Positions 27,560 to 57,883 of a stretch of 64,000 nucleotides of DNA are shown piece after piece. The notes below the pieces were generated by a model. That model saw only the letters and a list, made by a program, of their open reading frames with translations. It was not told the origin of the DNA and made no database searches. The number at the start of each line of letters is the position of its first letter. Within the stretch, counting starts at the first letter, position 1. The translations under genes and the position numbers were made by a program. The DNA is from Erythrobacter sp. (GTDB lineage: Bacteria > Pseudomonadota > Alphaproteobacteria > Sphingomonadales > Sphingomonadaceae): the NCBI GenBank assembly GCA_025698865.1, contig JAILWQ010000004.1, positions 186,001 through 250,000 on the forward strand, read 5' to 3'.

Positions 27560-27967
27560 TCACATACCTTCCATGTCGTGATCGGCCATCGAGGACATGT
27601 CATGGCCCGTATGGGGATCGGCGGGCGGAGTCGCCTCGCTCGCGGGTTGCGGGCGCGTTGCTGGCGCGGCGGGTGTGGCAGTTGCGCGTGAAGCGGGCGA
27701 GGCGGCGCGCCGTGAGGCGGGCGTGGCGGCATCATCTGCCGAAGTAGCGTCCTGCCGCGCAGTCGCTGCCTCACCTTCGGAGGGAGAGGCTGCCGGGTCT
27801 GCAAGACCCGCTTCAGGTGCCGTACCAGCCACCACCGCAGCTTCGCCCATAGTCGAAACCTCGGTGATCGGTGTGCTCTCCTGCGCCTCGTCGCAGGCAG
27901 CAAGAGCGGACATCAAGGGCGAGATCGCGAGAAACCCGATCGCTACATTCAATCTGGAAGTACGCAT
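27560..27967 (-). CDS. lipoprotein with Ala/Pro-rich linker and His/Met C-terminal tail
   Basis: 135 aa from MRTSRLNVAIG. A signal peptide ends in lipobox SALAAC (Cys25). A long low-complexity Ala/Thr/Pro/Ser linker follows, then the tail DPHTGHDMSSMADHDMEGM, a likely Cu(I)/Cu(II)-binding patch. It starts 14 bp after the DUF2231 gene in the same direction, so it shares that gene's ECF-type promoter. No domain recognised; periplasmic copper buffering is inferred from the tail and neighbours. The longer track ORF from 28219 is a frame shadow upstream of this start. Confidence 0.7.
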   Translation of the reverse strand: MRTSRLNVAIGFLAISPLMSALAACDEAQESTPITEVSTMGEAAVVAGTAPEAGLADPAASPSEGEAATARQDATSADDAATPASRRAASPASRATATPAAPATRPQPASEATPPADPHTGHDMSSMADHDMEGM

Positions 27968-27981: not shown

Positions 27982-28653
27982 TCAGAGCCAGGAAATACCG
28001 AGGTGGTTCGCCCCATGCGCGAGCTCGCCGCCAAGGAAGCCTTGGATGAGAACGAGCGCCGCCATGGAGAAGATCGACGCGCGCAACCAGGCGCGGCTCT
28101 GGCTCGGCCTGCTCGCGAGATAGGCCATCGCAATACCGAGAACCGCGATCAGCATACCGTTCCATCGATGCACCTGCATGACAGTGTCGCCGCCGAACCA
28201 CAGCCCGGTGTGAATCCATCCGAACAGGACTGCGACCACCGCGCCGATGGCCCCGCCGTAGGCAAGCACGCGCACCGCACTTTCCAGGCCCGCTCCTTTC
28301 CGGCGCATCACGAACAATTCGGTGGCCGCAGCCATGAGAAACAAGGCGATCGGGAAATGGATCGTTGCCGGATGCAGCTTCTTCAGTACGGCCATGACGC
28401 CGGCTTCGCCCTCATCCGCATGGCCAACGGCCTCGTCATGACCTCCGCCCGCTTCATCGTGCGCGTCAGAGGATTCGCCAGCATCCGCAGTCTCACCCAT
28501 CTGCGCCATGGCCGCCTGGTCGTGCGCATCGCCATTGGTGGCAGCAGGCGCGGCGCTCGCCTCTTCGCCATGTTTTTCGTCGCCATGAGCATGAACGGGT
28601 CCGACGAAGAGCAGGCTTGCGACGAGCAGCGCCAAGAATGAGGGGGCTTTCAT
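27982..28653 (-). CDS. DUF2231 membrane protein with His/Asp-rich periplasmic loop
   Basis: 223 aa from MKAPSFLALL. A signal peptide (VGPVHA|HG) leads into a His-, Asp- and Glu-rich segment (GDEKHGEE...DAHDEAGGGHDEAVGHADEGE), then DUF2231: KLHPATIHFPIALFLMAAATELFV and three more helices with VQVHRWNGMLIAVLG-like histidines. Similar proteins occur in copper and other metal clusters; biochemical role unknown. The track start at 28710 lies upstream of the promoter's -10, so it cannot be used from that promoter. Confidence 0.8.
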   Translation of the reverse strand: MKAPSFLALLVASLLFVGPVHAHGDEKHGEEASAAPAATNGDAHDQAAMAQMGETADAGESSDAHDEAGGGHDEAVGHADEGEAGVMAVLKKLHPATIHFPIALFLMAAATELFVMRRKGAGLESAVRVLAYGGAIGAVVAVLFGWIHTGLWFGGDTVMQVHRWNGMLIAVLGIAMAYLASRPSQSRAWLRASIFSMAALVLIQGFLGGELAHGANHLGISWL

Positions 28654-28703: not shown

Positions 28704-28731
28704 TACGCACCGCAGCCGCCTGCCCCTCACA
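28704..28731 (-). promoter_or_regulatory. ECF-type promoter (DUF2231 operon)
   Basis: Minus strand TGTGAGGGG-N15-CGTA. The CGTA element lies 50 bp before the ATG at 28653. It shares element sequences and exact 15-bp spacing with four other promoters in this cassette. Confidence 0.65.
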
Positions 28732-28883
28732 TTAATTTGATGGTATTGGCGCGACAGATGTGCGTCCGCCGTATCACGTCTGATGGCGGCACCATCGCGA
28801 TTGTCGAACGCAGTCGGCTCCTGGCCCCGTTCGGCCTGGCGCACGGGTTAAGGCGTTCGCCCACGCGCATTAGCCCCATGGGC

Positions 28884-29615
28884 TCAGGCGAGTTTGCTCT
28901 TCTTTGTGCGACGACGCAGCCGCGGCATCCGGTTCGCAAGCAGGACGAAACCCGACAGGGCTATGATCGTGCCGCCAATGCCGAACAGCAGAAGCCACCA
29001 ACTGTTGATGCGATCGCGCTCGGTCCAGTCCATGATGTGCAGGCCCCAGATGAAATCGAACAGGCGCCAAGTATCACTACGCGCCGCCCCGAGGGTACCG
29101 CTGCTGGCATCGATGTAGAGGCGCGTCGAAGCCTCGTCAGCATAGGTGACCTGCCAGGCCGGAAAAGGGCCGCGAAACTCGGTCCCCACCGGTTCGTGAA
29201 CGAGCCGCGCGCCTTCGATCGTCGTGCGCGGTCCGGTCCATGCGCGCAACGCGATGGATCTTGCCGTCGGAGCCGAGATGGGGGAGAGTTTGCGCCCTGT
29301 CACCGGATCGTGAAGGCTCACGCTACCGTCGACCTTTCGGACCTCGGTCACGGCATCGCCGTCGAGCGAACGCGTCGACACCGCCGCAAGAGTACCGTCG
29401 TTTGCGACCCAGGCCGGGAGCGGGGCATCGGCAGGCAGCGCCTCTTGTTCACGCGAAACGACATGTTCGGAGCGAACTTCTTCCAGGTTGAGAAACGACA
29501 TGAGGGCGCCGGTTCCCATCCACAAGAGAACCTGGACACCGACGAAAATCGCCAGCCATTTGTGGATCTTGCTGCCGAGCACATGCAGGCGCAGCTTCAG
29601 CGACGGCGTTGCCAA
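28884..29615 (-). CDS. PepSY-type membrane protein
   Basis: 243 aa. An N-terminal helix (KIHKWLAIFVGVQVLLWMGTGALMSFL), a periplasmic domain of ~150 residues with PepSY-like character (FPAWQVTYADEASTRLYIDASSGTL), and a C-terminal helix (SWWLLLFGIGGTIIALSGFVLLANRM) followed by a basic tail. It resembles PepSY-associated membrane proteins found with copper and iron-reductase genes. It begins 27 bp after the NTF2-like gene and is probably the last gene of the copAB operon. Confidence 0.75.
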   Translation of the reverse strand: MATPSLKLRLHVLGSKIHKWLAIFVGVQVLLWMGTGALMSFLNLEEVRSEHVVSREQEALPADAPLPAWVANDGTLAAVSTRSLDGDAVTEVRKVDGSVSLHDPVTGRKLSPISAPTARSIALRAWTGPRTTIEGARLVHEPVGTEFRGPFPAWQVTYADEASTRLYIDASSGTLGAARSDTWRLFDFIWGLHIMDWTERDRINSWWLLLFGIGGTIIALSGFVLLANRMPRLRRRTKKSKLA

Positions 29616-29642
29616 CCGGTGCTACCTCTTCGAAAGCCGTAA

Positions 29643-30161
29643 TCAGTTGCGCAGCGCGCGCGACGAGGAATGGTACTGGACGATTCTCCACCCGTCCGCA
29701 TCGTGAGCAAGCACCGATGTCGCCACGCCGTCGCGCTCGATCACCCGGCCATCGCTAAGTTCGATGCGATAGCCATACGTCTCATAGGCATGGGCCATGT
29801 GCCCCATCCGGGTGACGGTCAGCGTGGGGTCGGTAAAGGTGAAGCTCACAATCGCGTCGAGCTCGGGGCCCAAATGGTGCTCCATGTAATTGGCAAAGCT
29901 TCCTTCCGCCTTGCCATTCTCGAAGATCGCCGAGTCCTCGGCGAAGAGCGCGCGCATTGCCTGCGCGTCGCGCGCTTCAAGAGCGGTGCGATAGGCCTTG
30001 AGGGTTTCTTCAGCGCCCGCGACATCCTCCGCCGAGGCGTCCATCGCGTGCATCTGATGGTTCGCATGAGAAGAGTGGTCCATCTGCTGCGCGAAGGCTG
30101 GCAGCGGTATCAGCGCGGCAACAAACGCAGTCGCCGCGATGCGCGTCAAAGTCTTGGTCAT
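29643..30161 (-). CDS. secreted NTF2-like (SnoaL-fold) protein
   Basis: 172 aa. Signal peptide MTKTLTRIAATAFVAALIPLPAFA|QQ, a short His/Met stretch (MDHSSHANHQMHAM), then an NTF2-like fold (ETLKAYRTALEARDAQAMRALFAEDSAIFENGKAEG...DGWRIVQYHSSSR). It lies between copB (24 bp) and the PepSY gene (27 bp) in one leftward operon. The metal-rich N-terminus suggests a periplasmic copper-binding role; no enzymatic residue can be assigned. Confidence 0.8.
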   Translation of the reverse strand: MTKTLTRIAATAFVAALIPLPAFAQQMDHSSHANHQMHAMDASAEDVAGAEETLKAYRTALEARDAQAMRALFAEDSAIFENGKAEGSFANYMEHHLGPELDAIVSFTFTDPTLTVTRMGHMAHAYETYGYRIELSDGRVIERDGVATSVLAHDADGWRIVQYHSSSRALRN

Positions 30162-30185
30162 GGAAGTTTTATCCTTTTTGAGATT

Positions 30186-31502
30186 TCAGAACCAGAATCG
30201 CACACCGACGACATAATTGGTGACGCTCGGATCCTCTCCGGCGGCCCGCGCAAAATCCGCGCTGTCGCCGATGCGCCATTCTTGCGAAACGCCGACATAG
30301 GGTGCGAATTCGCGCGCGAACTCGTAGCGAAGACGCAGGCCCGCCTCGATCCGATCGAGCCCGGCACCGATGCCCAGCTCGGGAATGTCCTGCGCAGAAA
30401 GCGCGAGTTCGGCTCTGGGCTGGAGGATCAACCGCTGCGTGATGCGCTGGTCGAGTTCGCCCTCGATCCGCGCGGTCACATCGCCCTTGGTGGACACGAA
30501 GGCCGCAGCATCGACCTCGAAACGGTACGGCATGAGACCCTGTATGCCGATAACCGCGTGCGTGCGCTCCGGACCGGTGAGGTCCTGGCGAACACCCGCC
30601 TGGAAATCGAAGAAGGGCGCAATGGCGCGGCTCCAGAGCGCCTGGACCTCGGCGCCTTCTATGGGTTCGCCAAAGCTGCCCTCACCCTCGGACTTGAACC
30701 AGAATTTGTCGATGTCGCCGCCATAATATCCCTGGATGTCCCACAGATATCCATCCTTCCCCTCGCGGGCGCGGTATTCGAGGCGGTCGCCCTGAAACCA
30801 GAAGCGCATTCCTCCGTCGGTCTCGCGGACAAGCTCGCGCCGCGCTTCGTTCATGGCTTCCTCGCCCCAGATGGCGACCGCCGCGCGCGCTGGGCCGCTC
30901 CCGGCTTCTGGAGGAGGCGGCAGCAGCGGGATATCGGCATCCGAGCCCATCTGCATCGCCGAATGGTCCATGCCCTGCATGTCCTGTGAAGGCGTCTGCC
31001 CATGGTTCATCTGGCTGTGATCCATCTGCCCATGGTCCATCGACGACCTGTCTGCGTTCGCCTGCCCCATCTCGCCGTGGTTCATCTGCGAATGATCCAT
31101 CGCACCTTCGGCGGGCTTGCCCTGCGGCATCGAGCCGTGATCCATTCCGTCATGACTTTCGGGCGATGCCTGTGGACGGGCAGCGTCCATCGGCATTGTC
31201 ATGCCAGAATGACCGTCCCGAGCGGTCATCGAACCATGATCCATGGTTGAATGATCCATCTCGGAGCGGTCCATGGCGGCTTCAGGCTGGGCAGCCGGTT
31301 CGCATGCTCCATCTGCAACCGGATGCCCCATTGCGCGATGGCGCTCGGCTTCTTGTTCGCACTTTGTCTTGGCGTCGGCCTGCGCCTCGACACTCTGCTG
31401 CGGTTCCGTCGGCGAATGACCGGCATGCTGCGCCGCCGCCGGGGAGGCGAGAACTGAGCCGGCTGCGACCGATGCGAGCAGGCTGACAATACGAATTTTC
31501 AT
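30186..31502 (-). CDS. copB: CopB, copper resistance outer-membrane protein
   Basis: 438 aa. A signal peptide (ASPAAAQ) is followed by an unusually long Met/His repeat region of about 170 residues (MDHSTMDHGSM, MDHSQMNHGEM, MDHGQMDHSQMNHGQ). The C-terminal beta-barrel domain has the typical EEAMNEARRELVRETDGGMRFWFQGDRLEYR start and YVVGVRFWF end with terminal Phe. It overlaps copA by ATGA. It is thought to store or pass copper at the outer membrane together with CopA. Confidence 0.95.
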   Translation of the reverse strand: MKIRIVSLLASVAAGSVLASPAAAQHAGHSPTEPQQSVEAQADAKTKCEQEAERHRAMGHPVADGACEPAAQPEAAMDRSEMDHSTMDHGSMTARDGHSGMTMPMDAARPQASPESHDGMDHGSMPQGKPAEGAMDHSQMNHGEMGQANADRSSMDHGQMDHSQMNHGQTPSQDMQGMDHSAMQMGSDADIPLLPPPPEAGSGPARAAVAIWGEEAMNEARRELVRETDGGMRFWFQGDRLEYRAREGKDGYLWDIQGYYGGDIDKFWFKSEGEGSFGEPIEGAEVQALWSRAIAPFFDFQAGVRQDLTGPERTHAVIGIQGLMPYRFEVDAAAFVSTKGDVTARIEGELDQRITQRLILQPRAELALSAQDIPELGIGAGLDRIEAGLRLRYEFAREFAPYVGVSQEWRIGDSADFARAAGEDPSVTNYVVGVRFWF

Positions 31503-33307
31503 GCTTCGCTCCCGTCGGGATTGGCGACCGTGACGATCTGAAACATCCCGGCATGCATGTGGTAGAGAAGGTGACAGTGGAAGGCCCAGTCGCCCGGCTC
31601 GTCCGCCGTCAGGTCGAACTGCGCGCTGCCACCCGGCTGCAGGATTACCGTGTGCTTGAGCGGTTGACGATCGGCCGGCGCGCCATTGACCAGCTCGAAG
31701 AAATGACCGTGCAAGTGAATGGGGTGCGCCATCATCGTGTCGTTGACGAGCTTCACGCGCACGCGCTCGTTATAGGCGAAACGGATCGGCTCGTCTGAGA
31801 CGGCGGAGAACTTCTTGCCGTCGAACGACCACATGTAGCGCTCCATATTGCCGGTCAGATGAATTTCCATTCGCCGTGACGGCGTGCGGCCCTCGCGGTG
31901 CGGCGTCAGAGCGCGCAGCTTGCGATAGTCGAGCGTGCGATGCGGCACATCGGCGAGACCGATGCCGGGATCGCCCATACGGTCGACCGGGTTCATCGAG
32001 ACCATGTCGAGACCGGGACCGACCTTCACATCGGGTGGCAGGAGCGAGGTATCGCGCATCTGCATGCCCGACATTCCGGCCATGCCTGCCATCTCGGATT
32101 GGCCGGACGAACCATGGTCCATCCCCGCCATGTCGCCGCCACTTCCATGGTCCATACCCGACATGCCGGCATCGCCAGACGAGCCGTGGTCCATGCCGCT
32201 CATGCCCATGTCGGCCATGGTCAGGAGCGGCGGATCGCGCAGCGGCGGAATGGCGGCGCGCGCGCCGGGTGCGCTCGCGAGTGTGGCAATACCCATGCCC
32301 GAGCGGTCCATCGACTCAGCGACCAGCGTGTAGGCCTGTTGCGCGCCCGGCGTCACGACGACGTCATAGGTCTCGGCCACGCCGATCTGGAACTCGTCGA
32401 CCTCAACCGGCTCGACGTTCTGCCCGTCCGCCTGAACGATGGTCATCGGCAGGCCGGGAATGCGAATATTGAAGAAGGTCATGGCGCCGGCATTGATGAA
32501 GCGCAGCCGCACGCGTTCGCCCGGGCGGAAGAGGTATTCCAGATTGTCGAGCGGGCCATGGCCGTTCAGAAGATAGGTATAAGCCGCGCTCGACACGTCG
32601 AGGATGTCCGTCGGCATCATGCGCATTTTCGCCCACATCCGGCGATCCTCGCCCGAAAGCGGGTAATCGTCGGTCCAGGTGTTCTGGTTGTAGTTGAAGT
32701 AGCCTTCGCCCTTCTTGAGCTTGTCGAAAATCGTGTGGGGCGACATTTCGCTGAATTCGCTCAGCACCACGATATATTCGCGGTCGGCCTGGACCGGATC
32801 GGGTCCGGCGGGGTCGATCACGATCGCGCCGTAATGCCCGGCCTGTTCCTGCAGGCCGCTATGCGAGTGCCACCAGTAGGTACCCGACTGGCGAACCGGA
32901 AATTCGGCGGTGAAGGTCTCTCCCGGTTTGACGCCGGGAAAGCTCACGCCAGGCACTCCATCGAGCTGAAACGGCACGAGCAGACCGTGCCAGTGGATCG
33001 AGGTATCTTCCTCGAGCTGGTTATGGACATTGAGCCGGACGGTCGTGCCTTCCTGCAATCGCAACAGCGGACCGGGGATCGTGCCATTGACGGCGATCGC
33101 GCCGCCGCGCCTGTTGCCGGTCGCGAAGGCCGATCGGGCAACGGTGAGGTCGATATTGGGGCCGGATATCTCGTCCAGCCCCTTGCGGGCGTTACCTGCG
33201 AGGATGTCCGCGCCCCGTGCCCAGGCAGGCATCGCCCCGGCAAGGCCGAGCAGACCCATTCCTCCTGCTCCGGCTCCGAGAAACTTGCGTCGATTGACGG
33301 CGATCAT
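31499..33307 (-). CDS. copA: CopA/PcoA-type multicopper oxidase
   Basis: 602 aa, Tat-exported (NRRKFLGAGAGGMGLLGLAGAMPAWA). All copper-ligand motifs are present: IHWHGLL, WWHSHSGLQ, HPIHLHGHF and HCHLLYHMHAGM. A Met-rich insertion around residues 370-420 (MGMSGMDHGSSGDAGMSGMDHGSGG) is typical of the PcoA/CopA subgroup and binds Cu(I). It oxidises Cu(I) in the periplasm. First gene of the copA-copB-NTF2-PepSY operon, preceded by an ECF-type promoter that overlaps the end of the sigma-factor gene. Confidence 0.96.
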   Translation of the reverse strand: MIAVNRRKFLGAGAGGMGLLGLAGAMPAWARGADILAGNARKGLDEISGPNIDLTVARSAFATGNRRGGAIAVNGTIPGPLLRLQEGTTVRLNVHNQLEEDTSIHWHGLLVPFQLDGVPGVSFPGVKPGETFTAEFPVRQSGTYWWHSHSGLQEQAGHYGAIVIDPAGPDPVQADREYIVVLSEFSEMSPHTIFDKLKKGEGYFNYNQNTWTDDYPLSGEDRRMWAKMRMMPTDILDVSSAAYTYLLNGHGPLDNLEYLFRPGERVRLRFINAGAMTFFNIRIPGLPMTIVQADGQNVEPVEVDEFQIGVAETYDVVVTPGAQQAYTLVAESMDRSGMGIATLASAPGARAAIPPLRDPPLLTMADMGMSGMDHGSSGDAGMSGMDHGSGGDMAGMDHGSSGQSEMAGMAGMSGMQMRDTSLLPPDVKVGPGLDMVSMNPVDRMGDPGIGLADVPHRTLDYRKLRALTPHREGRTPSRRMEIHLTGNMERYMWSFDGKKFSAVSDEPIRFAYNERVRVKLVNDTMMAHPIHLHGHFFELVNGAPADRQPLKHTVILQPGGSAQFDLTADEPGDWAFHCHLLYHMHAGMFQIVTVANPDGSEA

Positions 33308-33339
33308 AAAGGGCTCCTGACTTGGCGTTTACCGTTACT

Positions 33340-33367
33340 TACGCGCGCGCCCAGCCAACCCCTCAAA
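33340..33367 (-). promoter_or_regulatory. ECF-type promoter (copAB operon)
   Basis: Minus strand TTTGAGGGG-N15-CGTA, with CGTA 32 bp before the copA ATG. The -35 element overlaps the sigma-factor stop codon (33363-33365). Same elements and spacing as the sigma operon's own promoter. Confidence 0.75.
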
Positions 33368-33923
33368 GTTTTTCGAAGCGCTCCTTCAGCCTGTTGCGCG
33401 CGCGATATACGCGGGTTTCGATCGCCTTTTCGGTCGTTCCGAGAAGATCGGCCGCCTCGGCCTGGCTACGCCCCTCGATGGTCACGAGCACAAGCGCTTC
33501 GCGCAGCCTTACAGGCATTCGCGCGATCTCGGCCTGAACGAGATTGAGCTCTTCCCTGGAAACGGCCAACGCTTCAGGACCAGGCAAATCGTCGGCGATG
33601 GAATAGAGTTCGTCATCACCCGACAGTCCGAAAAAGCCCGCGACCTTGCGCCTGCGCAAACGGTCCCGGCAGCGGTTGAGGACGACGGTTGTCAGATAGG
33701 GTCCGATCGGCTTGTCCGGATCAAGCCGATGGCGCGTCAGCCACACCGAAGCGAGGCTGTCCTGAACAACGTCCTCGGCCTGAGAAGGAGAGGAAAGCAT
33801 GCGTGTCCCGAGCGCGAGAAGCCGACCAGTTTCATGCTCGACGAGTTGGCTGAAAGCCCGCTTGTTTCCAGCCCTCGCCTGCGAAACAAGGGCCTCATCC
33901 GGATTGTCGCCCGCCCCCGACAT
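33363..33923 (-). CDS. ECF RNA polymerase sigma factor (CnrH-like position)
   Basis: 186 aa. Region 2 reads VVQDSLASVWLTRHRLDPDKPIGPYLTTVVLNRCRDRLRRRKVAG and region 4 reads ALVLVTIEGRSQAEAADLLGTTEKAIETRVYRARNRLKERFEKL, with no extra domain. It is the third gene after a small membrane protein and a CnrX-like sensor, in the order of cnrY-cnrX-cnrH, so it is probably held by the first and released when the sensor binds metal. It likely reads the AGGGR-N15-CGTA promoters in this cassette, including its own. Confidence 0.9.
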   Translation of the reverse strand: MSGAGDNPDEALVSQARAGNKRAFSQLVEHETGRLLALGTRMLSSPSQAEDVVQDSLASVWLTRHRLDPDKPIGPYLTTVVLNRCRDRLRRRKVAGFFGLSGDDELYSIADDLPGPEALAVSREELNLVQAEIARMPVRLREALVLVTIEGRSQAEAADLLGTTEKAIETRVYRARNRLKERFEKL

Positions 33924-33929
33924 GGCGCT

Positions 33930-34364
33930 TCAGTCGCGAGGGTCGCGGGTCAAGGCGTCGGAGACCTTGCGGTCGAACTGGCGTTGCTGCTCGGGTTCGA
34001 GAATTTCGCGCATGTCGAAGACATGGCGCACCGTTGCTTTCTGCAGATCGCCCATGCGTGCATGCACCTCGTCGATCGCGGCCGAGACCTCGGGACCGTA
34101 CTCATGCTCGGTTTCCATCGCCTGGGCGAGCCGGGCATTGGCTGCACGCGCCGATCCTTCGAGCCGTGCCCTTTCGACAGCGAAACGAGCCTCGAGCGCA
34201 TCGAGACGCTGCTCCTGGTCGGCCGTCAGGGTGAGTTCGTCGTGCACGAAATCGTGGAGGCCGGAGCCAGCCTCGTGATTGGCCCAGCGGTCCGCGGCAA
34301 TCGCGCCGAGGCATCCTGCAAGTGCTGCGAGAAGCACCGCGAGAACGATATGCGTCGTCTTCAA
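33930..34364 (-). CDS. CnrX-like periplasmic metal sensor
   Basis: 144 aa from a TTG start 3 bp after the preceding stop. An N-terminal membrane anchor (IVLAVLLAALAGCLGAIAA) is followed by an all-helical periplasmic domain of the Metal_resist/CnrX type. His37, His41, Glu58, His114 and Met118 reproduce the CnrX ligands H42, H46, E63, H119 and M123 with identical spacing (motifs LHDFVHDE and RHVFDMREIL). In CnrX these bind Ni(II)/Co(II). The metal that signals here is open: the downstream genes are copper genes. Confidence 0.88.
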   Translation of the reverse strand: MKTTHIVLAVLLAALAGCLGAIAADRWANHEAGSGLHDFVHDELTLTADQEQRLDALEARFAVERARLEGSARAANARLAQAMETEHEYGPEVSAAIDEVHARMGDLQKATVRHVFDMREILEPEQQRQFDRKVSDALTRDPRD

Positions 34365-34367
34365 ACC

Positions 34368-34664
34368 CTATTGCTCCACATGGAGGAGCGCCGATGGGGA
34401 CAGCTGTTCGCCGAGGATAAGACTCTCGCCAAATGACGCGGAAGACGTGCCATAGCCGCCGGGCCAACCGCTCGTTCCGGCGCCAGCTCCAAGCCCGACG
34501 ACGAACAGACCGACGAACAGAGCCGTCCGGCGGCGTCGGTCGGCGATTTCGCCAAGCTGTCCGGCGCGCTGCCAAACGCCATCCATGAAGTCGGCGGGGA
34601 CCTCGCTGGTGCCGGTGGCGGAAAGGGTTCCGAGCACCGCATCAAGAGAGTGATTGTCACGCAT
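34368..34664 (-). CDS. small single-pass membrane protein, probable anti-sigma factor (CnrY-like position)
   Basis: 98 aa from MRDNHSLDAVLG. A cytoplasmic N-terminal half of about 45 residues (EVPADFMDGVWQRAGQLGEIADRRRR) precedes one membrane helix (TALFVGLFVVGLGAGAG) and a short periplasmic tail. Size, topology and first position in the operon match CnrY, which binds the sigma factor with its cytosolic segment. Sequence identity to CnrY cannot be judged by eye, so the role is inference from layout. The overlapping ORF 34361..34660 is a shadow. Confidence 0.7.
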   Translation of the reverse strand: MRDNHSLDAVLGTLSATGTSEVPADFMDGVWQRAGQLGEIADRRRRTALFVGLFVVGLGAGAGTSGWPGGYGTSSASFGESLILGEQLSPSALLHVEQ

Positions 34665-34696
34665 CCGAAAAACTCCTGTGGGTTGCACGTGTCCTA

Positions 34697-34724
34697 TACG
34701 CGCTCGCCTGCACAATCCCTTAAA
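34697..34724 (-). promoter_or_regulatory. ECF-type promoter (sigma/sensor operon, autoregulatory)
   Basis: Minus strand TTTAAGGGA-N15-CGTA, with CGTA 32 bp before the ATG at 34664. It is divergent from, and a few bases away from, the matching promoter for the methyltransferase gene. Confidence 0.75.
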
Positions 34725-34732
34725 CTTCTTTT

Positions 34733-34760
34733 TTTGAGGGAATGTCCACCACCATACGTA
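34733..34760 (+). promoter_or_regulatory. ECF-type promoter (methyltransferase-DUF411 operon)
   Basis: TTTGAGGGA-N15-CGTA, 37 bp before the ATG at 34798. It lies back to back with the sigma-operon promoter. Confidence 0.7.
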
Positions 34761-34797
34761 ATCGAGACGGGTCTGTCAGAATCGGGTCGAACCCGGG

Positions 34798-35502
34798 ATG
34801 AATGGAAACCAACTCGTGAGCAATATCACCGCACCTGAAGATCACGGCGAATTTACGCCTCTTCTTGGCAAGAGCTTTCTGACGCCGCTTTACGACCGGG
34901 CGATCGGTCTGTTCACCCGCGAACATCTCTGGCGCCAAAGGATTGTCGAAGAGCTGCACCTTGTCCCCGGCGACCGGGTGATCGATGTTGGCAGCGGAAC
35001 CGGCACTCTTCTCAAGGCCTTGATGACGGATTGTCCGGAAGCGGGTCTGATCGGTGTCGAACCCGACCCGGATGCGCTCGCGCTTGCGCGGCGCAAGTTT
35101 GGCGCGGGAGCCGATCTCGTGAAATGGCACAATGGCTTTCTCGAAAGCCTCGAGCTACCCGCAGGGTGGCAGCCGAACAAGATCGTCAGCAGCCTCGTCC
35201 TGCACCAGGTCCCCTTGCGCAAGAAGCAGACAATCCTGGAAACCATCGAAAGCTTGCTCGTGCCAGGCGGAACCGTGTTGATCTCCGATTATATGAAGCA
35301 GGATAGCCCACTCATGCGGAGCCTCTTCCGGGCGACCGTCCAGTCTCTTGACGGCATAAGCGACACGCAGCCCAGCGCCGACGGCGAAGTCGAAAAACTG
35401 TTCGCCGAAATCTTCACCGAGCCATGCCTGCTCCAACGGTTCCCGACGGCAACCGGGACGATCTCGCTATGGCGCGGATACAAGAAAGGAATTGCACAAT
35501 GA
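34798..35502 (+). CDS. class I SAM-dependent methyltransferase
   Basis: 234 aa. Motif I VIDVGSGTGTLLKAL (about residues 61-75), motif II acidic residue in LIGVEPDPDALALA, and motif IV region NKIVSSLVLHQVP. It resembles small-molecule methyltransferases of the UbiE/ArsM-like class but lacks the ArsM cysteines, so no substrate can be assigned. It overlaps the DUF411 gene by ATGA and is preceded by an ECF-type promoter, placing it in the metal regulon. Confidence 0.82.
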   Translation: MNGNQLVSNITAPEDHGEFTPLLGKSFLTPLYDRAIGLFTREHLWRQRIVEELHLVPGDRVIDVGSGTGTLLKALMTDCPEAGLIGVEPDPDALALARRKFGAGADLVKWHNGFLESLELPAGWQPNKIVSSLVLHQVPLRKKQTILETIESLLVPGGTVLISDYMKQDSPLMRSLFRATVQSLDGISDTQPSADGEVEKLFAEIFTEPCLLQRFPTATGTISLWRGYKKGIAQ

Positions 35503-35963
35503 ATTTGAAAAAGCCTTCGCTGCTCCGGCGATCGATTAGCGGCGCGGCCTTGCTCGTGCTGGCAGCCTGTTCGAACGTGGCTCAGGCAGCGACCTATACG
35601 ATGTTCCGGGATCCAGGATGTGGGTGCTGTCTCAACTGGGCAGGCCATGTCGAAGACGGGATGAACACGAAGGTGGCATCGGTCGACAGCAACGACATGG
35701 CGGCGATCAAGACCGCGCGGGGCGTACCCCATGAGTTATGGTCATGCCATACGATGGAGGTCGATGGATACATCATCGAAGGTCACGTGCCTGCAGAAGC
35801 CGTCGCCAAGCTTTTGCGCGAACGGCCCGCCGGCGTTGCCGGCCTCGCGGTTCCGGGAATGCCTCTGGGATCGCCCGGCATGGAGGCCGGAAACCGGATC
35901 CAGCCTTACGACGTCATCGCCTTTGGCCCAACCGGACAGAGCGTCTTCGCGTCCTTTCCGTAA
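35499..35963 (+). CDS. DUF411 metal-binding lipoprotein
   Basis: 154 aa from MNLKKPSLLRRS. Lipobox VLAAC (Cys24), then the DUF411 signature MFRDPGCGCCLNWAGHVE with clustered cysteines, ELWSCHTMEVDGYIIEGHVPAEAV and a C-terminal PGMEAGNRIQPYDVIAF. DUF411 proteins bind copper in the periplasm and are common in cop clusters. Translationally coupled to the methyltransferase (ATGA). The track start at 35424 is within the upstream gene and out of register with a signal peptide. Confidence 0.88.
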   Translation: MNLKKPSLLRRSISGAALLVLAACSNVAQAATYTMFRDPGCGCCLNWAGHVEDGMNTKVASVDSNDMAAIKTARGVPHELWSCHTMEVDGYIIEGHVPAEAVAKLLRERPAGVAGLAVPGMPLGSPGMEAGNRIQPYDVIAFGPTGQSVFASFP

Positions 35964-36057
35964 GGGGGTGAAGCCACTCCATGCGTCGGCATGAAAGGTT
36001 GCAGGCGATGAGGACTAATTGCGGGAAGCGACACAGAAGCCTGTCGAACTTCTCGCC

Positions 36058-36092
36058 GGGTCCGGGCTGGCTGCCCCCACAGTCCCGGACCC
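36058..36092 (+). terminator. hairpin after the DUF411 gene
   Basis: GGGTCCGGG ... CCCGGACCC, a perfect 9-bp stem with a 17-nt loop, 95 bp after the DUF411 stop. There is no strong U-run after it, so termination is possible but unproven. The rest of the 35964-36249 gap contains the permease promoter. Confidence 0.4.
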
Positions 36093-36171
36093 TTCCAATT
36101 TGTATGATTGCAGCACGCACGAAATAGGAGAAATGCGATAGTCAAAAGCTCGGTCAGAAATGCTGGATCTT

Positions 36172-36199
36172 TTTAAGGGGTGAACCTCTGCCCAACGTA
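36172..36199 (+). promoter_or_regulatory. ECF-type promoter (permease operon)
   Basis: TTTAAGGGG-N15-CGTA, with CGTA 50 bp before the TTG start at 36250. Fifth member of the shared motif set. Confidence 0.7.
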
Positions 36200-36249: not shown

Positions 36250-37602
36250 TTGCAGACAGATGGCGACGATCAACATAGCGAGAATGCGGGCTCGATAACG
36301 TTGCTGGGCGGTGTCGCGATGGGGACCGGCGTCATGATTGGCGCCGGTATCTTCGCACTGACCGGCCAGATTGCCGAACTGGCTGGACCGTTATTTCCGC
36401 TTTCTTTCATAGTCGGCGCGCTGGTTACCTCGCTTGCCGCCTACAGCTACATCAAGATGTCGAACCGCTGGCCCTCCTCTGGCGGCATCGCGATGATCCT
36501 TCAGAAGGCTTACGGACCGGGCGTCGTTGCAGCATCGGCATCGCTCCTGATGGCGCTGTCGATGGTCATCAACGAAAGCCTGGTCGCTCGGACCTTCGCG
36601 ACCTATGCCTTGCGGCCCTTTGGGCTCGAAAGCAGCGGCATTCTGGTCTCCGTCGCGGCACTGGCCCTCATCGTTTTCGCCTATTTCGTGAATGCTGCCG
36701 GCAACAAATCGGTCAGCGGGTTTTCGCTCATTATGTCGGCAATCAAGATCGGCGGCATCGCCCTGTTCGCAATTGCGGCGATCTGGGCCACCGGATTTTC
36801 AGGCGGTGCCTTCGCAGAGCCGGTCGCGCTTTCGGGCCTCGACGCGTTGCTCGCTTCGGTCGCTTTCTCGATCCTCGCTTTCAAGGGTTTCACCACCATC
36901 ACCAACAGCGGCGGCGAAATCATCGATCCGCATCGGAATGTCGGCAGAACCATTATCATTTCGATCGCAGTATGCGTGGTCGTCTACCTTCTCGTCGCGG
37001 TGGCGGTCGGCGCCAGCCTCAGCACTTCAGAAATAGCCGAGGCGCGCGATTACTCTCTTGCGGCAGCTGCGCGCCCCGCGCTCGGAGAGCTTGGCTTCTA
37101 TTTCACAGTCGCAATCGCGATCGCAGCCACGACCTCGGGTGTCATCGCCAGTGTTTTCGCCGTTTCGCGAATGCTGACGATGCTGACCGAGATGAAGATG
37201 ATCCCGCATAGCCATTTCGGCATGAGCGGACCGATCCGCAGTCACATGCTGGTCTATACCGTAGTGATTGCCGGCACGCTCGCGGTCCTGTTCGATCTGT
37301 CGCGGATCGCTTCGCTCGGAGCATTTTTCTATCTCGTAATGGACATGCTTGTGCATTGGGGCGTGCTGCGCGGTTTGCGGGAAGAGATCGGTGCGCGTGC
37401 CTGGGTGCTATGGTCGGCACTCGTGGCGGACAGCGTAGTCCTGACAGCTTTTGCCTTCGCCAAGCTCAAAACCGACCCTGCGGTCGTCGCCTATGCGGTC
37501 GCAGGCATTGCCGCCGTTTTCATCGCCGAATGGTTCTATTTGTCCAGGCGTTCGCAAGCGATGGACTCCGCTTCAGAAAGACCGGCGGAAGAGAGGCGGT
37601 GA
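36250..37602 (+). CDS. APC-family amino acid/organocation permease
   Basis: 450 aa, about 12 membrane helices. The first helix has the APC signature GGVAMGTGVMIGAGIFALTGQIAELAG. Later helices include FKGFTTITNSGGEIIDPHRNVGRTI, a region conserved in amino acid permeases. TTG start with GGGGAAAGAC upstream. Transport substrate unknown; control by the metal-linked promoter suggests it imports a metal-buffering amino acid or exports a complex, but that is speculation. Followed 100 bp later by the glutaredoxin-MauE gene in the same direction. Confidence 0.85.
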   Translation: MQTDGDDQHSENAGSITLLGGVAMGTGVMIGAGIFALTGQIAELAGPLFPLSFIVGALVTSLAAYSYIKMSNRWPSSGGIAMILQKAYGPGVVAASASLLMALSMVINESLVARTFATYALRPFGLESSGILVSVAALALIVFAYFVNAAGNKSVSGFSLIMSAIKIGGIALFAIAAIWATGFSGGAFAEPVALSGLDALLASVAFSILAFKGFTTITNSGGEIIDPHRNVGRTIIISIAVCVVVYLLVAVAVGASLSTSEIAEARDYSLAAAARPALGELGFYFTVAIAIAATTSGVIASVFAVSRMLTMLTEMKMIPHSHFGMSGPIRSHMLVYTVVIAGTLAVLFDLSRIASLGAFFYLVMDMLVHWGVLRGLREEIGARAWVLWSALVADSVVLTAFAFAKLKTDPAVVAYAVAGIAAVFIAEWFYLSRRSQAMDSASERPAEERR

Positions 37603-37702
37603 CCCCGTTAGTAGAACACGAGCGCAAAGGCAGCGACCAAAAGCCGACGAGGATCGAGGCGCCAAGTTCGCGGATCAAAAGAAATTCAAGACGGAGCATA
37701 TC

Positions 37703-38464
37703 GTGACGACTAAAACTGCCACCGTTTACCGAATGGTCATGCCGGACCACGTTTGTCCGTATGGATTGAAAACGGTCGATTTGCTCAAACGCGAAGGTTT
37801 CGAGGTGGACGACCACCATTTGAAAACGCGCGAGGAGACCGATGCGTTCAAAGAGCAGCATGGGGTAGAAACCACCCCCCAAACCTTCATCGGCGGGAAG
37901 CGCATCGGAGGTTACGACGATGTCCGTGAGCATGTCGGCAAGAAAAGAACGCAAGCCGGTGATGACGAGACCAGCTACCAGCCCGTCATTGCCATTTTCG
38001 GCGTCGCTTTCCTCCTGGGTCTGGCAATTAGCTGGTACGTTTTCGACACGATTTTCACGGTGGAAGCGGTCGAATGGTTTGTCAGCCTATCGATGGCCTT
38101 GCTCGCGATCCAGAAGTTGCAGGACGTGCGCAGCTTCTCGACCATGTTCCTCAACTACGATCTGCTGGCGCGACGCTGGGTAGGATATGGATTTCTATAT
38201 CCGTTCGGTGAGGGTTTGGCTGGAATATTAATGGTCGCGCACGCGCTTCCGATCGTCTCGGTTCCGGTATCGCTGTTCATAGGGACGGTCGGCGCGGTCA
38301 GCGTGTTCAAGGCGGTCTACATCGACAAGCGCGAGTTGAAATGCGCTTGCGTCGGCGGAAGCAGCAACGTGCCGCTCGGCTTCGTATCGTTGACCGAGAA
38401 CCTGTTCATGATCGGTATGGGTCTTTGGATGGGTGCCAAGGCCCTGGGTTGGGTCTCGCTATGA
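37703..38464 (+). CDS. glutaredoxin-MauE membrane fusion protein
   Basis: 253 aa from a GTG start with GGAG 7 nt upstream. Residues ~8-80 form a glutaredoxin domain (VYRMVMPDHVCPYGLKTVDLLKREGF, TTPQTFIGGKRIGGYDDV) with a CPYG site that keeps only one redox Cys. Residues ~95-250 form four membrane helices of MauE/DoxX type (SMALLAIQKLQDVRSFSTMFLNYDLLARRWVGYGFLYPFGEGLAGI). A Cys pair in the loop (KCACVGGSSNVPLG) may relay thiol electrons. Likely a membrane thiol/disulfide or metal-handling protein; ATGA overlap with the channel gene. Confidence 0.8.
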   Translation: MTTKTATVYRMVMPDHVCPYGLKTVDLLKREGFEVDDHHLKTREETDAFKEQHGVETTPQTFIGGKRIGGYDDVREHVGKKRTQAGDDETSYQPVIAIFGVAFLLGLAISWYVFDTIFTVEAVEWFVSLSMALLAIQKLQDVRSFSTMFLNYDLLARRWVGYGFLYPFGEGLAGILMVAHALPIVSVPVSLFIGTVGAVSVFKAVYIDKRELKCACVGGSSNVPLGFVSLTENLFMIGMGLWMGAKALGWVSL

Positions 38465-38877
38465 TTTGGGCACTGCTTCTCGGTTTCGCGCTGTTCGCGA
38501 TCTCTCTCTACTTCCACATGTTGATGCTGCGCGGGGCGAAAGCCGTTTCTCCGCCAGGCAAGGACCCACGCCATTTCCGGCTGCTTGCAGGCTCCAGCCT
38601 CGTTCTTCTCAGCCATCTGGTCATCGCCGGCATATTCGCGGGCGGAATGTATCTCGCTTCCGTCTGGGGCCTTGGCGGGCTCGAGAAGGACGTCATCAAC
38701 AGCTGGATGGATTATTACTACTTCGCGCTGATCACGATCTCGACGGTCGGTCTCGGCGATATTCTGCCCGCCGGGCACATGCGCGCCATTTCCGGCATCG
38801 CCGCCCTTACCGGGTTCCTGATGATCAGTTGCACCGCCCAATATGTCTATCAAACCATGAGCGAAAAGGAGAATTGA
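38461..38877 (+). CDS. two-helix ion channel protein (K+ channel-like pore)
   Basis: 138 aa. Three to four hydrophobic segments. The last two flank a pore loop YYYFALITISTVGLGDILPAGH, which contains the K+-channel filter core T-V-G-L-G-D. No cytoplasmic RCK or cyclic-nucleotide domain is present. Coupled by ATGA to the glutaredoxin-MauE gene and followed 1 bp later by the DUF305 gene. A pore protein inside a metal-resistance operon is unusual; it might balance charge during metal efflux (speculative). Confidence 0.78.
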   Translation: MIWALLLGFALFAISLYFHMLMLRGAKAVSPPGKDPRHFRLLAGSSLVLLSHLVIAGIFAGGMYLASVWGLGGLEKDVINSWMDYYYFALITISTVGLGDILPAGHMRAISGIAALTGFLMISCTAQYVYQTMSEKEN

Positions 38878-38878
38878 T

Positions 38879-39412
38879 ATGGCTGAAGCTAGGCACGATG
38901 CACACGAAAAAGGTGGAGGGGGCGGCAACTACTGGCGGTTCATGGCAATGGTATCGACCTCGACCGTGATCATGTTCTTCCTGATGTATGCCAACAGCTT
39001 CGACATGGACGACGTTTTCTGGAGCGAGACGCGCTTCTGGATGATGTTCGTCATGGGCGCGATGATGATGGTGGTCATGCTTCTCTTCATGTGGGGCATG
39101 TACAAGGACCGGACCAAGAACTTCATCATCTTGGGTGTCGGAGCCGTCGTCTTCGCGCTCGCGCTATGGCTCGTACGCAGCCAGACCACGGTGGACGATA
39201 CCGAATACATGGCCGCGATGATCCCGCACCACTCGATCGCGATCATGACTAGCGAGAGGGCGAGCCTGAAGGATCCGCGGGTTCGCGAACTCGCGCAGGC
39301 CATCATCGTCGCGCAGCGGCGCGAGATCGCCGAGATGAAATATCTCATCCAGGACATCGAGGAAAACGGTCCGCGCACCGAAGAACGTCTGCCCGAGGAG
39401 ATGCAGCAATGA
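38879..39412 (+). CDS. DUF305 membrane protein
   Basis: 177 aa. Three N-terminal membrane helices unusually rich in Met and Phe (WMMFVMGAMMMVVMLLFMWGMYKD). A C-terminal ferritin-like DUF305 helical part carries EYMAAMIPHHSIAIMTSERASLKDPRVRELAQAIIVAQRREIAEMKYLI. The HH pair and Met residues are the usual metal-binding candidates. DUF305 proteins are frequent in copper clusters. ATGA overlap with the next lipoprotein gene. Confidence 0.88.
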   Translation: MAEARHDAHEKGGGGGNYWRFMAMVSTSTVIMFFLMYANSFDMDDVFWSETRFWMMFVMGAMMMVVMLLFMWGMYKDRTKNFIILGVGAVVFALALWLVRSQTTVDDTEYMAAMIPHHSIAIMTSERASLKDPRVRELAQAIIVAQRREIAEMKYLIQDIEENGPRTEERLPEEMQQ

Positions 39413-39897
39413 ACAAGATCGCAATCCTGACGCTTGCAGCCCTCCCTCTGGCGGCCTGCAACACCAATACCGCGGTCGGCAATGATCGCGAAGCACAGCT
39501 CGATCCCCCGGCAACTGCGGCGCCGATAGAGAGTGCTGCGAGCGCTCTTGCCAATCTCAGCCCGGGCCTCATGCTGCCCGAGACCATGAGCGACGCGGAC
39601 CTCGCCACGCTGGGAGCCGAGAACACGTGTCAGTTTCGCCTGACTGAGGTCGCGTTTCCGTCGTTCGTCTACGACAACAGCGGTGGCGGCGCGATCAAGA
39701 TCAACGGCAAGCTGATCCCTGTCACAGCAAGCGCCTCGGGTGAGTATGCGAATGGTGAGCTTCGTATCCGCACGCGCCTTCTCGATGACGAAGGAGACGC
39801 GGGCCTGCAGATGCAGGAACTCATCGTCGCCGGACCTCGGATGAAGGACGAGTTCGGGTTCTGGGGGTACACGACCTGCGGCAACAGCGAGGCGTGA
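39409..39897 (+). CDS. hypothetical lipoprotein
   Basis: 162 aa. Lipobox PLAAC (Cys17). The mature part is mainly beta (FRLTEVAFPSFVYDNSGGGAIKINGKLIPVTASASGEYANGELRIRTRLLDDEGD) with two cysteines (ENTCQFR, YTTCGNS) that could form a disulfide. No named domain recognised. Last gene of the permease-led operon, so its role is probably periplasmic and metal related. Confidence 0.7.
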   Translation: MNKIAILTLAALPLAACNTNTAVGNDREAQLDPPATAAPIESAASALANLSPGLMLPETMSDADLATLGAENTCQFRLTEVAFPSFVYDNSGGGAIKINGKLIPVTASASGEYANGELRIRTRLLDDEGDAGLQMQELIVAGPRMKDEFGFWGYTTCGNSEA

Positions 39898-47218: not shown

Positions 47219-47662
47219 CTAGCAACAACCCGATGAGGCCTTTTCCTGAGATGGCTTGGAGATTTCCTCGACGAGTTCTGCGGTCTTTGCATCGGCACCG
47301 GACCGTGCAATATCAGCCTGGGAAACCATGCCGCAGCAATTCCCTTCGTCATCAATCACGGGAACGCGCCGGACCTGGTTGCTCTCCATCGTGGAGCAAC
47401 ATGCATCTACCTCGGTATCCGGCGTGACAGTGACAACCGAACGGGTCATGATGTCCCCCACCGGGGTGTCGGGCGACTTGCCTTCAGCTACGACGCGACA
47501 GCAAATGTCCCGATCTGTGACGACACCCACCAGACCGCCTTGGTCATCAACAACAGGAATCTCTCCGCAGTCGTTTCCCACCATGAGCTTCGCTGCATCC
47601 TGTACGCTCGCATCCTTGTCGCAGCAGGCGGGATCCTTCGTCATAATGTCCTTAACATGCAT
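47219..47662 (-). CDS. CBS-pair protein with Cys-rich ends
   Basis: 147 aa, two CBS motifs: MTKDPACCDKDASVQDAAKLMVGNDCGEIPVVDDQGGLVGVVTDRDI and IMTRSVVTVTPDTEVDACCSTMESNQVRRVPVIDDEGNCCGMVSQADIA. Cysteine pairs (ACC, ACCS, NCCG) and the C-terminal SSGCC are unusual for CBS proteins and could bind Cu(I). Transcribed from the CueR-type promoter about 80 bp upstream. Ligand unknown. Confidence 0.85.
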   Translation of the reverse strand: MHVKDIMTKDPACCDKDASVQDAAKLMVGNDCGEIPVVDDQGGLVGVVTDRDICCRVVAEGKSPDTPVGDIMTRSVVTVTPDTEVDACCSTMESNQVRRVPVIDDEGNCCGMVSQADIARSGADAKTAELVEEISKPSQEKASSGCC

Positions 47663-47771: not shown

Positions 47772-48219
47772 GCCCCCTCCATGCGACGAATTGGCGAACT
47801 CGGTGCCGACCTGGACCGCACAAGGAGGTCGCGCAGGTGCTGATCTTGGTGCGTCTCTGATGGGTCACGCTTACAGTACGAGCCATCTGCTCCAACCCCT
47901 CATATTGGCTGAATGGGAAAAGGTCGGGAGCTTGGAGAAAAGATCGTTTCAGCGAATGGATATGTTCCACTCAATAGAGCTGACACCGAGATTTGTTGCG
48001 AATTAAACTTCGCAAACGGGCAGACCACGCCTTGGCAAAAAACTGCAATCGCGAAACTGGCCAAGCTTGAGGTTTTGCGAACAACGACGCAGCACCTTCG
48101 GGCCCGCTCCAGGAGTCTTATGTGTCTCGCCGGTCAAATGTCGGACGCGTCCTCAGCCAATTGCTGGTCCAACCCAAAATGAAGCGAACCATGAGAACAG
48201 ACCAGCGCCAACTCTGTTT

Positions 48220-48678
48220 TTAGCAGACCCGCTGGTATCCGAACTTGTGACCGACTTCTTTTGCTAAGGCAGGATTGGCATCGTTGGAAAGATCTTTGAG
48301 AATAGGACAATCTGGCCGGTCATCGTTCGTGCAACCCGCGATAAGATGCTCAAGAGCGTCGATCATGGAAAGAATTTCTGCCGCCTTGGCGCGCAGAGCA
48401 CCCAAGTGTCCGGCGGCAACCTCCCGGACATCCTTGCTGGCTCTTTTCTCGTCGTGCCACAGACCGAGCAATTCGCCGATATCATCTACCGAAAAGCCAA
48501 GGTTGCGGGCGCGGCGGATGAACCGCAGCGTATGTATTTCGGCAGGGCCGTAAAGCCGATAGCCAGCTTCGGTGCGTTCGGCCGCTCCGATCAGACCGAT
48601 TTTCTCATAATGCCTGATCATCTTGGCCGACACGCCACTGTCTGCGGCGGCCTCACCAATTGTGTGCAGTTGGCTCAT
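48220..48678 (-). CDS. cueR: CueR-like Cu(I)-responsive MerR-family regulator
   Basis: 152 aa. Winged helix HTIGEAAADSGVSAKMIRHYEKIGLIGAAERTEAGYRLY. The two Cu(I) cysteines C116 and C124 sit in the loop GCTNDDRPDCPIL. There is no Cys near position 77-84, as expected for sensors of monovalent ions (CueR) rather than Hg/Zn/Pb. It lies between two operators of the same design, one on each side, and probably controls both. Confidence 0.9.
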   Translation of the reverse strand: MSQLHTIGEAAADSGVSAKMIRHYEKIGLIGAAERTEAGYRLYGPAEIHTLRFIRRARNLGFSVDDIGELLGLWHDEKRASKDVREVAAGHLGALRAKAAEILSMIDALEHLIAGCTNDDRPDCPILKDLSNDANPALAKEVGHKFGYQRVC

Positions 48679-55918: not shown

Positions 55919-56283
55919 TCCTGCTCGCGGCACCGCTGGCGCTTGCAGCCTGCGACGCTGCAGACGACAGCTCAGAGACCATGATGTCAGACGACATGGC
56001 GAACTCGGACAGCATGCCCATGTCAGGCGAAATGCCGATGGCGGAGGAGACCGGCGGCGAGCAGAGCGCCAGCGCGGAGGGAACGGTTACAGCCATCGAT
56101 TCCGAGGCGGGCACTGTGACCATCGAGCATGGTCCGGTCGAAAGTATCGGGTGGCCCGCGATGACCATGGCATTCGAAGCCGACGCGCAAATCCTCGAAC
56201 AGGTCAGTGTCGGTGAGGGAATAGCCTTTAAATTTCGTACTGGAACCGAAGGCAGCGTCGTTACCTCGGTAACGCCGCGATAG
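55897..56283 (+). CDS. cusF: CusF-like periplasmic copper-binding lipoprotein
   Basis: 128 aa from [10 protein letters not shown] with AAGGAGAAGAAG before the ATG. Lipobox LAAC (Cys19), a Met/Asp-rich linker ([20 protein letters not shown]), then the CusF barrel [32 protein letters not shown] with the Cu(I) ligands His, Trp and two Met. It starts 22 bp inside cusA. The track ORF from 55429 is the same frame run backwards into cusA antiregister. Confidence 0.93.
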
Positions 56284-56341
56284 CATGAAGGGTGGGAGGC
56301 GCTCGGTTGCGCCGGTGCCTCCCACGCAAAAACAGGTGAAT

Positions 56342-57883
56342 ATGCCCGATATCGACAGGCCCAACTTTCAGGATCGGCGCGATTTCATGAAGAGCGCCGG
56401 TCTCGCGGCGACGGGTTTCGCGGCGCTGCCGCTGCTGGGCTGCGATACGCAAAGCAGGATGTCGCTCGATCGATCAGGTGCAAGCAAACCTCTTGCCATA
56501 CCTCGGCTACAGGCCGGAACGATCGAACGGGGCGAGCGTGTCTTTCGCCTCTCCCTCACACCTGGCGAGAAAGAATTCGTGTCCGACACTCCGTCTCCGA
56601 CAATCGGCATCGATGCATCCTATCTCGGGCCCACCCTCGAAATGCGCCGCGGCGAACAGGTTCGCTTTCAGATCGACAACAAGCTTGCCGAGGACGCGAC
56701 TGTCCACTGGCATGGTTTCGAACTTCCCGCCACAGCGGATGGCGGACCGCACCAGCTCGTGCGGCCCGGCGAGCGCTGGAGCCCGTCCTTCGAAATACGC
56801 CAGCGCGCTTCGTTATACTGGTATCATTCGCATCTGCATCGCCGGGCCGGACCACAGGTCTATACCGGACTTGCTGCCCCGATCTACGTGCGCGACGAGG
56901 AAGAGGATCGCCTCGATCTGCCGAGCCGGTACGGTGTAGATGACATACCGCTCGTCGTGCAGGATCGCGTGATCGACAGCTCGGGCCGCCTTGTTTACCC
57001 GCTCGACATGCACTCGCGGATGATGGGGGTGATGGGTGAGCGCATCTATGTGAACGGAACGGCCAATGCCGTTTTCGAGGCCGCCGCCGGTCCGCTGCGC
57101 CTGCGGCTTCTCAATGGATCGAATGCGCGGTTCTACACCTTCTCGCTCGAAGGTGATCGTCCGATGCAACTCATCGCAAGCGATGGCGGCCTGCTTGCCG
57201 CGCCAAGCGAGGTTCGCAGTCTTACCCTTGCCCCAGGCGAACGCGCACAAGTGATCGTCGATCTTTCCGAAGGGCGCCCGCTCCGGCTGATTGCCAGCAG
57301 CCCTGCTAACGCCATGGGCATGATGGGCGGGCAAGGCGGGGGTATGATGGGCGGCGGAATGATGGGAAACCGGACCGGTCGCGAGAGGCAGGGCCGCACA
57401 TTTTCCATCCTCGATATGCGCCCCTCCGGCTCGTCGACTCCAGTGATGCTCCCGCCCACCCTCGCCGCGCTAGCCGCGCCAGACCCCTCGCTCGCCGTTC
57501 GCAGCCGCCGTTTCGTACTCGATATGGGCATGATGGGTCGGGGTATGTCGATCAACGGCCAGACCATGGACATGGATGTCATCAATCAGCGCGTACCGGT
57601 GGGTCAGTGGGAAATATGGGAAATCGCCAACGCATCGATGATGGCGCATCCCTTTCATATTCATAACGTGCAGTTCCGCTTGCTCGACCGGGACGGCCGG
57701 CCTCCGCGGGCGGAAGAGGCGGGCTTCAAGGACACCGTTATCGTCAACCCGCGTGAACAGGTCAGGCTGCTGCTACGGTTCGAAGAGAATACCGATCCCG
57801 ACACTCCCTACATGTATCACTGTCATATCCTCGAGCACGAGGACGCAGGCATGATGGGGCAGTTCGTGGTCACGGCCAGTTAG
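56342..57883 (+). CDS. CueO-like multicopper oxidase
   Basis: 513 aa from [20 protein letters not shown], a Tat-type signal ([24 protein letters not shown]) that also carries a lipobox-like Cys. Copper motifs: [29 protein letters not shown] and [15 protein letters not shown] Met/Gly-rich loop ([20 protein letters not shown]) corresponds to the CueO Met-rich insert. CAGGTGA precedes the ATG, so I use 56342 rather than the track's 56285. It oxidises periplasmic Cu(I). Confidence 0.93.

Follow-up and report, generated by a model that had tools for sequence, protein, structure and literature searches.

A candidate regulon of copper-resistance operons under a CnrH-type ECF sigma factor in a marine sphingomonad

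The window analyzed here, a stretch of 64,000 nucleotides from Erythrobacter sp. (contig JAILWQ010000004.1, positions 186,001 to 250,000), comes from an organism described as a marine sphingomonad (Qipengyuania-type) and contains a cluster of copper-resistance genes, in the middle of which an extracytoplasmic function (ECF) sigma factor is encoded. Five copies of the element AGGGR-N15-CGTA precede five operons of this cluster. On the comparative evidence presented below, it is very likely that this one CnrH-type sigma factor, which would thus control copAB together with the other operons, uses these five sites as its promoters; two further sites probably belong to the set. The element read by the local sigma factor would consist of a -35 box, TGAGGGR, and a -10 box, CGTA, the latter separated from GGGR by 15 bp.

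34697..34720, minus strand: promoter 1, AGGGA-N15-CGTA, predicted to be autoregulatory, before the anti-sigma/sensor/sigma operon; predicted transcription start (+1) about 8 nt after CGTA
33340..33363, minus strand: promoter 2, AGGGG-N15-CGTA, before copAB-SnoaL-PepSY
28704..28727, minus strand: promoter 3, AGGGG-N15-CGTA, before DUF2231-lipoprotein
34737..34760, plus strand: promoter 4, AGGGA-N15-CGTA, before methyltransferase-DUF411, divergent to promoter 1
36176..36199, plus strand: promoter 5, AGGGG-N15-CGTA, before the permease operon

The initial annotation had placed each of these five sites 32-50 bp ahead of a different operon start, and its positions hold. The spacer is exactly 15 bp in each case, and CGTA lies 50, 32, 32, 37 and 50 bp from the start codon for the sites at 28704, 33340, 34697, 34737 and 36176, respectively. 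The leading TTTr, which had been ascribed to all five promoters, occurs at four of them, the exception being 28727, which reads AATGTG; once these bases are counted, the plus-strand sites 34737 and 36176 start at 34733 and 36172. At the copA promoter, the sigma gene ends within the -35 box: its stop codon, TGA (33363-33365, minus strand), supplies the first three bases of TGAGGG. In the window as a whole, the pattern was matched seven times, the two additional exact matches being at 47877-47900 (minus strand) and 56216-56239 (plus strand), compared with 0.32 +/- 0.57 matches after dinucleotide shuffling, which never produced seven. The densest 7.5 kb among 300 simulated windows held two matches, versus the five observed. 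When spacers of 8-23 were scanned, all seven matches were found at 15, with 0-2 at each other length.

The genes of the regulatory operon are arranged on the minus strand in the order anti-sigma, sensor, ECF (Y-X-H).

34371..34664, minus strand: candidate CnrY-like anti-sigma factor, 98 residues, on the basis of position, size and one hydrophobic segment (residues 48-66)
33933..34364, minus strand: CnrX-type periplasmic metal sensor, 144 residues, Pfam Metal_resist
33366..33923, minus strand: CnrH-type ECF sigma factor, 186 residues, with sigma2 and sigma4 only and no C-terminal extension

Among solved structures, the best match of the sigma factor was CnrH (4cxf, E 3.8e-29; next match, E 1.3e-14), with which it was also placed in a phylogenetic tree. 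The best matches of the sensor in the PDB were CnrX and NccX (E about 6e-22), and the CnrX ligands H42, H46, E63, H119 and M123 are retained in 57-58 of 58 different sensor sequences, while control positions vary. The 98-residue protein has the place and size of CnrY. The sequence comparisons identify the local sigma factor as a CnrH homologue and the regulator as one of CnrYXH architecture, a feature that the initial annotation missed. The anti-sigma candidate itself had no Pfam match, and a PDB sequence search gave no match to CnrY. Among 80 loci of a genome collection, the sensor accompanies the sigma factor in all 80 and the anti-sigma factor in 79.

The closest known system is CnrYXH of the cnr determinant (Cupriavidus metallidurans CH34, plasmid pMOL28; also NccYXH), which has the same gene order and a sensor with all five ligands; the window sigma factor is 41% identical to CnrH over 93%. 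In both systems, GGGR-N15-CGTA precedes the regulatory operon and also the gene that immediately follows the sigma gene. On pMOL28 the element reads GGGGG-N15-CGTA upstream of cnrY and GGGGA-N15-CGTA upstream of cnrC. The published CnrH-dependent start sites lie 24 and 25 nt upstream of the cnrY and cnrC genes (PMC9045368), and both fall 8 nt after CGTA, which is thereby identified as the -10 box of CnrH promoters. By this alignment, the window element corresponds to the CnrH promoter element with A (TGAGGGR) rather than the G of cnr before GGGR. In some cassettes (L244, L247, L250 and L249) the -35 box is displaced by one base, to GA|GGGGR-N15-CGTA, which is also the arrangement in cnr; counted from TGAGGG, the effective spacing therefore ranges from 16 to 17. 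The two systems differ in their targets: the window system would control copAB and copper-associated genes, whereas cnr controls the CnrCBA resistance-nodulation-division (RND) pump. The RND efflux genes cnrCBA, the target operon of cnr/ncc determinants, are not in that position here, where copA follows the sigma gene. The window system also has three or more added promoters and is found in Alphaproteobacteria.

The proposal that the locally encoded sigma factor reads these sites gained support both from this correspondence and from the joint occurrence of factor and motif. In 11 orthologous cassettes of the genus, with sigma factor identities down to 51%, the same genes are preceded by the motif, and its spacer is exactly 15 throughout. 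TGAGGGR-N15-CGTA was present in 37 of 37 genomes of the genus with the sigma factor versus 9 of 24 without it (61 genomes; Fisher p 2e-8), and the total matches numbered 169 and 9, respectively (reversed controls, 31 and 14); the nine matches in genomes lacking the factor are at background level. With the stricter form TTTKAGGGR, 88 matches were obtained in genomes with the factor and one in those without. Among copA genes that do not adjoin this sigma gene, none of 20 had the motif upstream.

A de novo enumeration of dyads in 106 non-redundant upstream regions ranked AGGG-N16-CGTA at the top (81 of 106, versus at most six in block-shuffled sequences), and the distance from motif to start codon was fixed for each gene class. 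The motif was found at 28-59 bp before the sigma operon in 23 of 25 non-redundant lineages, before copA adjacent to the sigma gene in all 26 upstream regions, and before DUF2231 in 16 of 20. Upstream regions of operon-internal genes (copB, SnoaL, PepSY, sensor and ECF) lacked it. The first two of these counts lend good support to the autoregulation already proposed in the initial annotation, and to a local regulon. In other lineages the divergent slot, i.e., the position of promoter 4, is occupied by DUF2231 or copC, again with a site. The same cassette and element also occur on plasmids of sphingomonads, where copCD or DUF2231 fills that slot.

In the genome collection, copA directly follows the sigma gene in 78 of the 80 loci, all 78 of which carry the motif. 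A survey of 399 genomes of the phylum, in which 30 CnrH-like loci were examined, found the motif in all 17 loci with a CnrX-type sensor and in none of the 13 without a sensor. In the sensor-bearing group copA is the next gene in 15 loci and cnrC in one (L249, the only such case). In other genomes, copC, a second ECF gene and DUF305 homologues were found to follow a site, as were genes for a thioredoxin-reductase-like protein and for a periplasmic protein rich in Met and His.

The predicted target operons of the window, the extents of which are inferred, comprise the following genes.

31502..33307, minus strand: copA, copper-resistance multicopper oxidase (TIGR01480, 778 bits)
30189..31502, minus strand: copB, outer-membrane copper resistance protein (PF05275)
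29646..30161, minus strand: secreted SnoaL/NTF2-like protein of the copAB operon (PF13474)
28887..29615, minus strand: PepSY_TM membrane protein of the copAB operon (PF03929)
27985..28653, minus strand: His-rich DUF2231 membrane protein (PF09990)
27563..27967, minus strand: His/Met-containing lipoprotein, no family match
34798..35499, plus strand: S-adenosylmethionine-dependent (SAM) methyltransferase (PF13649)
35499..35960, plus strand: DUF411 protein (PF04214)
36250..39894, plus strand: APC permease, glutaredoxin-MauE fusion, ion channel, DUF305 and DUF6692 (family scan)

The permease operon may run on, by predicted read-through, through a NAD-binding protein and a rhodanese to 42106. The initial annotation counted several genes with no established copper role among the members; for DUF411 proteins (CopG family), a copper role has already been reported.

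From the cnr system and the gene content, we infer sigma-DNA recognition, metal-triggered release, the copper signal and transcription itself. In the resting state, the small, single-span CnrY-like anti-sigma factor would hold the sigma factor at the membrane. The membrane-anchored, CnrX-like periplasmic sensor would bind excess metal via H42, H46, E63, H119 and M123, whereupon, as in cnr, the anti-sigma factor is expected to let the sigma factor go. Once freed, the sigma factor, together with RNA polymerase, would transcribe its own operon, in positive autoregulation, and the further targets copAB-SnoaL-PepSY, DUF2231-lipoprotein, methyltransferase-DUF411 and permease-glutaredoxin/MauE-channel-DUF305-DUF6692.

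Several observations weigh against this interpretation. The bare pattern AGGGR-N15-CGTA, which the initial annotation had suggested for a whole-genome scan, is not enriched in the genome (14 matches versus 23 for the reversed pattern). Since it does not exceed the reversed pattern, it has a background, and most of its off-cluster matches lie inside open reading frames. It was therefore rejected as a finder of regulon members in favor of TGAGGGR and TTTKAGGGR; the form extended to TGAGGGR gave six matches in the genome versus none for its reversed control, and it is this extended -35 box that confers specificity on the motif. Only about half (13 of 25) of the non-redundant permease upstream regions carry the motif, with CGTA 49-53 bp from the start, and for the methyltransferase the count is 4 of 10. 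The match of the anti-sigma candidate to the CnrY group is a weak profile match (hhalign E 1.6e-5, 79%). Many of the cassettes are kin by descent or transfer, so that their counts are not independent and overstate the evidence; non-redundant sets were used where possible, and the genus co-occurrence, unlinked copA and phylum sensor tests do not rely on counts alone. Finally, the sensor has the ligand set of the nickel/cobalt sensor CnrX, so that its ligands do not account for a specificity for copper.

This last point bears upon the nature of the signal. Periplasmic copper is the most likely inducer, because most of the target genes are copper-resistance genes. Alternatively, the same CnrH-type switch might respond naturally to nickel, cobalt or a mixture of divalent metals, as would be suggested by the conservation of all five nickel/cobalt ligands of CnrX and by the nearest characterized homologues, which are nickel/cobalt regulators. 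We regard this as rather unlikely in view of the genes next to the sigma factor: copA in the large majority of both the collection and the sensor-bearing phylum loci, with cnrC in L249 only, and, among the other neighbors, copB, copC, copD, DUF411 and Cu-type ATPases.

It is far less probable that the element is the operator of a DNA-binding regulator (CueR/MerR- or CopR-type), or the promoter of another sigma factor, with the local ECF factor as a mere neighbor. A CueR-like gene does occur at 48220-48678, and the presence of a motif does not by itself name its reader. The element, however, is neither a palindrome nor a direct repeat, and it equals the mapped CnrH-dependent promoters, with the -10 box at the right distance from +1. 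Moreover, the motif drops to background in genomes without the sigma factor, and is absent from the unlinked copA genes and from the sensor-less CnrH-like loci. Two-component systems (CopRS, CusRS and PcoRS) control copAB elsewhere and have the copA/copB structural genes in common with the window; in contrast, no kinase or response-regulator family was matched among the genes scanned beside the window operons, at 27.5-42 kb. A chance or compositional artefact of GC-rich sequence with purine-rich leaders, for which the genome-wide count of the bare pattern could be cited, can be dismissed given the clustering and spacing specificity in the window, the conservation at fixed start-codon distance over many lineages, and its refutation by the genus co-occurrence, the dyad search and the phylum sensor test.

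The assignment of all sites to the CnrH-type factor would probably extend the window regulon beyond the five sites and about 14 genes of the initial annotation, which was right about a local regulon but overlooked two sites, to seven sites and about 20 genes.

47877..47900, minus strand: probable promoter 6, TGAGGGG-N15-CGTA, 214 bp upstream of the Cys-rich CBS gene
47219-47662: Cys-rich CBS-domain gene, downstream of site 47877
44548-47133: SDR-membrane fusion gene, downstream of site 47877
56216..56239, plus strand: possible promoter 7, TGAGGGA-N15-CGTA, in the 3'-terminal part of a CusF-like gene
56285-57883: multicopper oxidase, starting 45 bp after site 56216
57897-60236: Cu P-type ATPase, after the multicopper oxidase

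Two lineages have conserved site 47877, which lies in a non-coding stretch of 300 bp before the CBS and SDR-fusion genes. The site is probably a promoter by these sequence criteria, and gains independent support from another genome, L178, in which the SDR-fusion homologue has a separate motif copy 119 bp upstream. No Rfam elements were found in the long, conserved CBS leader (214 nt). Site 56216 was dropped as an obvious promoter, as its conservation could be coding, given its position inside the CusF-like reading frame. The motif codons GAG, GGR and CGT are constant in all subgroup orthologues, while the spacer codons vary, and the synonymous sites of the motif look constrained; by this codon comparison, the site is retained as a possible promoter. 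A further match of the genome, TGAGGGG-N15-CGTA at G000:C20:479958, overlaps the start codon of a response regulator and was rejected as probably due to chance, and TGAGGGAGGACACCATGACCAACGTA in four genomes resembles conserved coding sequence.

Two other copper-linked ECF factors may be compared. CorE of Myxococcus xanthus (PMC3107203), a copper-dependent ECF factor, likewise controls a multicopper oxidase and other copper genes. CorE, however, senses copper via its own Cys-rich C-terminal extension, whereas the window factor has sensor and anti-sigma partners. A CorE-type autonomous factor was rejected for the window, since the 186-residue protein has a single Cys (residue 85), ends just after sigma4 and lacks a Cys-rich C-terminal domain. 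SigAb of Acinetobacter (PMC12153292) is also copper-linked and autoregulated, with a small CnrY-like anti-sigma factor, but its operon is sigAb-aabA-aabB, its direct regulon consists of three genes (sigAb, relA and sabS), and copper-resistance genes are indirect targets only.

In our view, the window probably exemplifies a trans-envelope switch of CnrYXH architecture that has been rewired to copper, has spread horizontally and commonly controls copAB copper resistance in sphingomonads as well as in other Alphaproteobacteria. As the five ligands are those of the nickel/cobalt system, metal specificity would have to come from outside the primary ligand set, which raises the question of how CnrX-type sensors that share all these ligands can be dedicated to nickel/cobalt genes in one lineage and to copper genes in another. 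If so, uncharacterized families, i.e., DUF2231, DUF305, DUF6692, SnoaL, PepSY, APC permease, glutaredoxin-MauE, methyltransferase, CBS and SDR-fusion, would share one copper regulon, and about ten poorly characterized gene families gain a concrete context. A precise promoter code can thereby be linked with a named sigma/sensor family in both beta- and alphaproteobacteria, which makes regulon members predictable from sequence alone. A known system already has this architecture and this promoter code. The literature search, which covered open-access papers, with subscription journals and ECF-classification supplements outside its scope, returned no paper on a CnrH-type copper regulon, and nothing on how broad such a regulon is or how it has spread in sphingomonads.

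Sigma factors at least 95% identical (L056-L084) occur across about eleven genera, including Qipengyuania, Croceicoccus, Novosphingobium, Sphingobium, Stakelama and Pacificimonas, which indicates recent horizontal spread of the island. One cassette, from Erythrobacter longus (L117), has the sensor and anti-sigma factor with neither copA downstream nor a motif after the sigma gene. In L175 (position 3584, minus strand) and L185 (position 478, minus strand), the motif stands in front of another ECF-like sigma gene, distinct from the first, which suggests a sigma cascade in those genomes. In L177 a divergent pair of motifs, at 3994 (minus strand) and 4025 (plus strand), precedes CopC-like and thioredoxin-reductase-like genes, far from the sigma gene.

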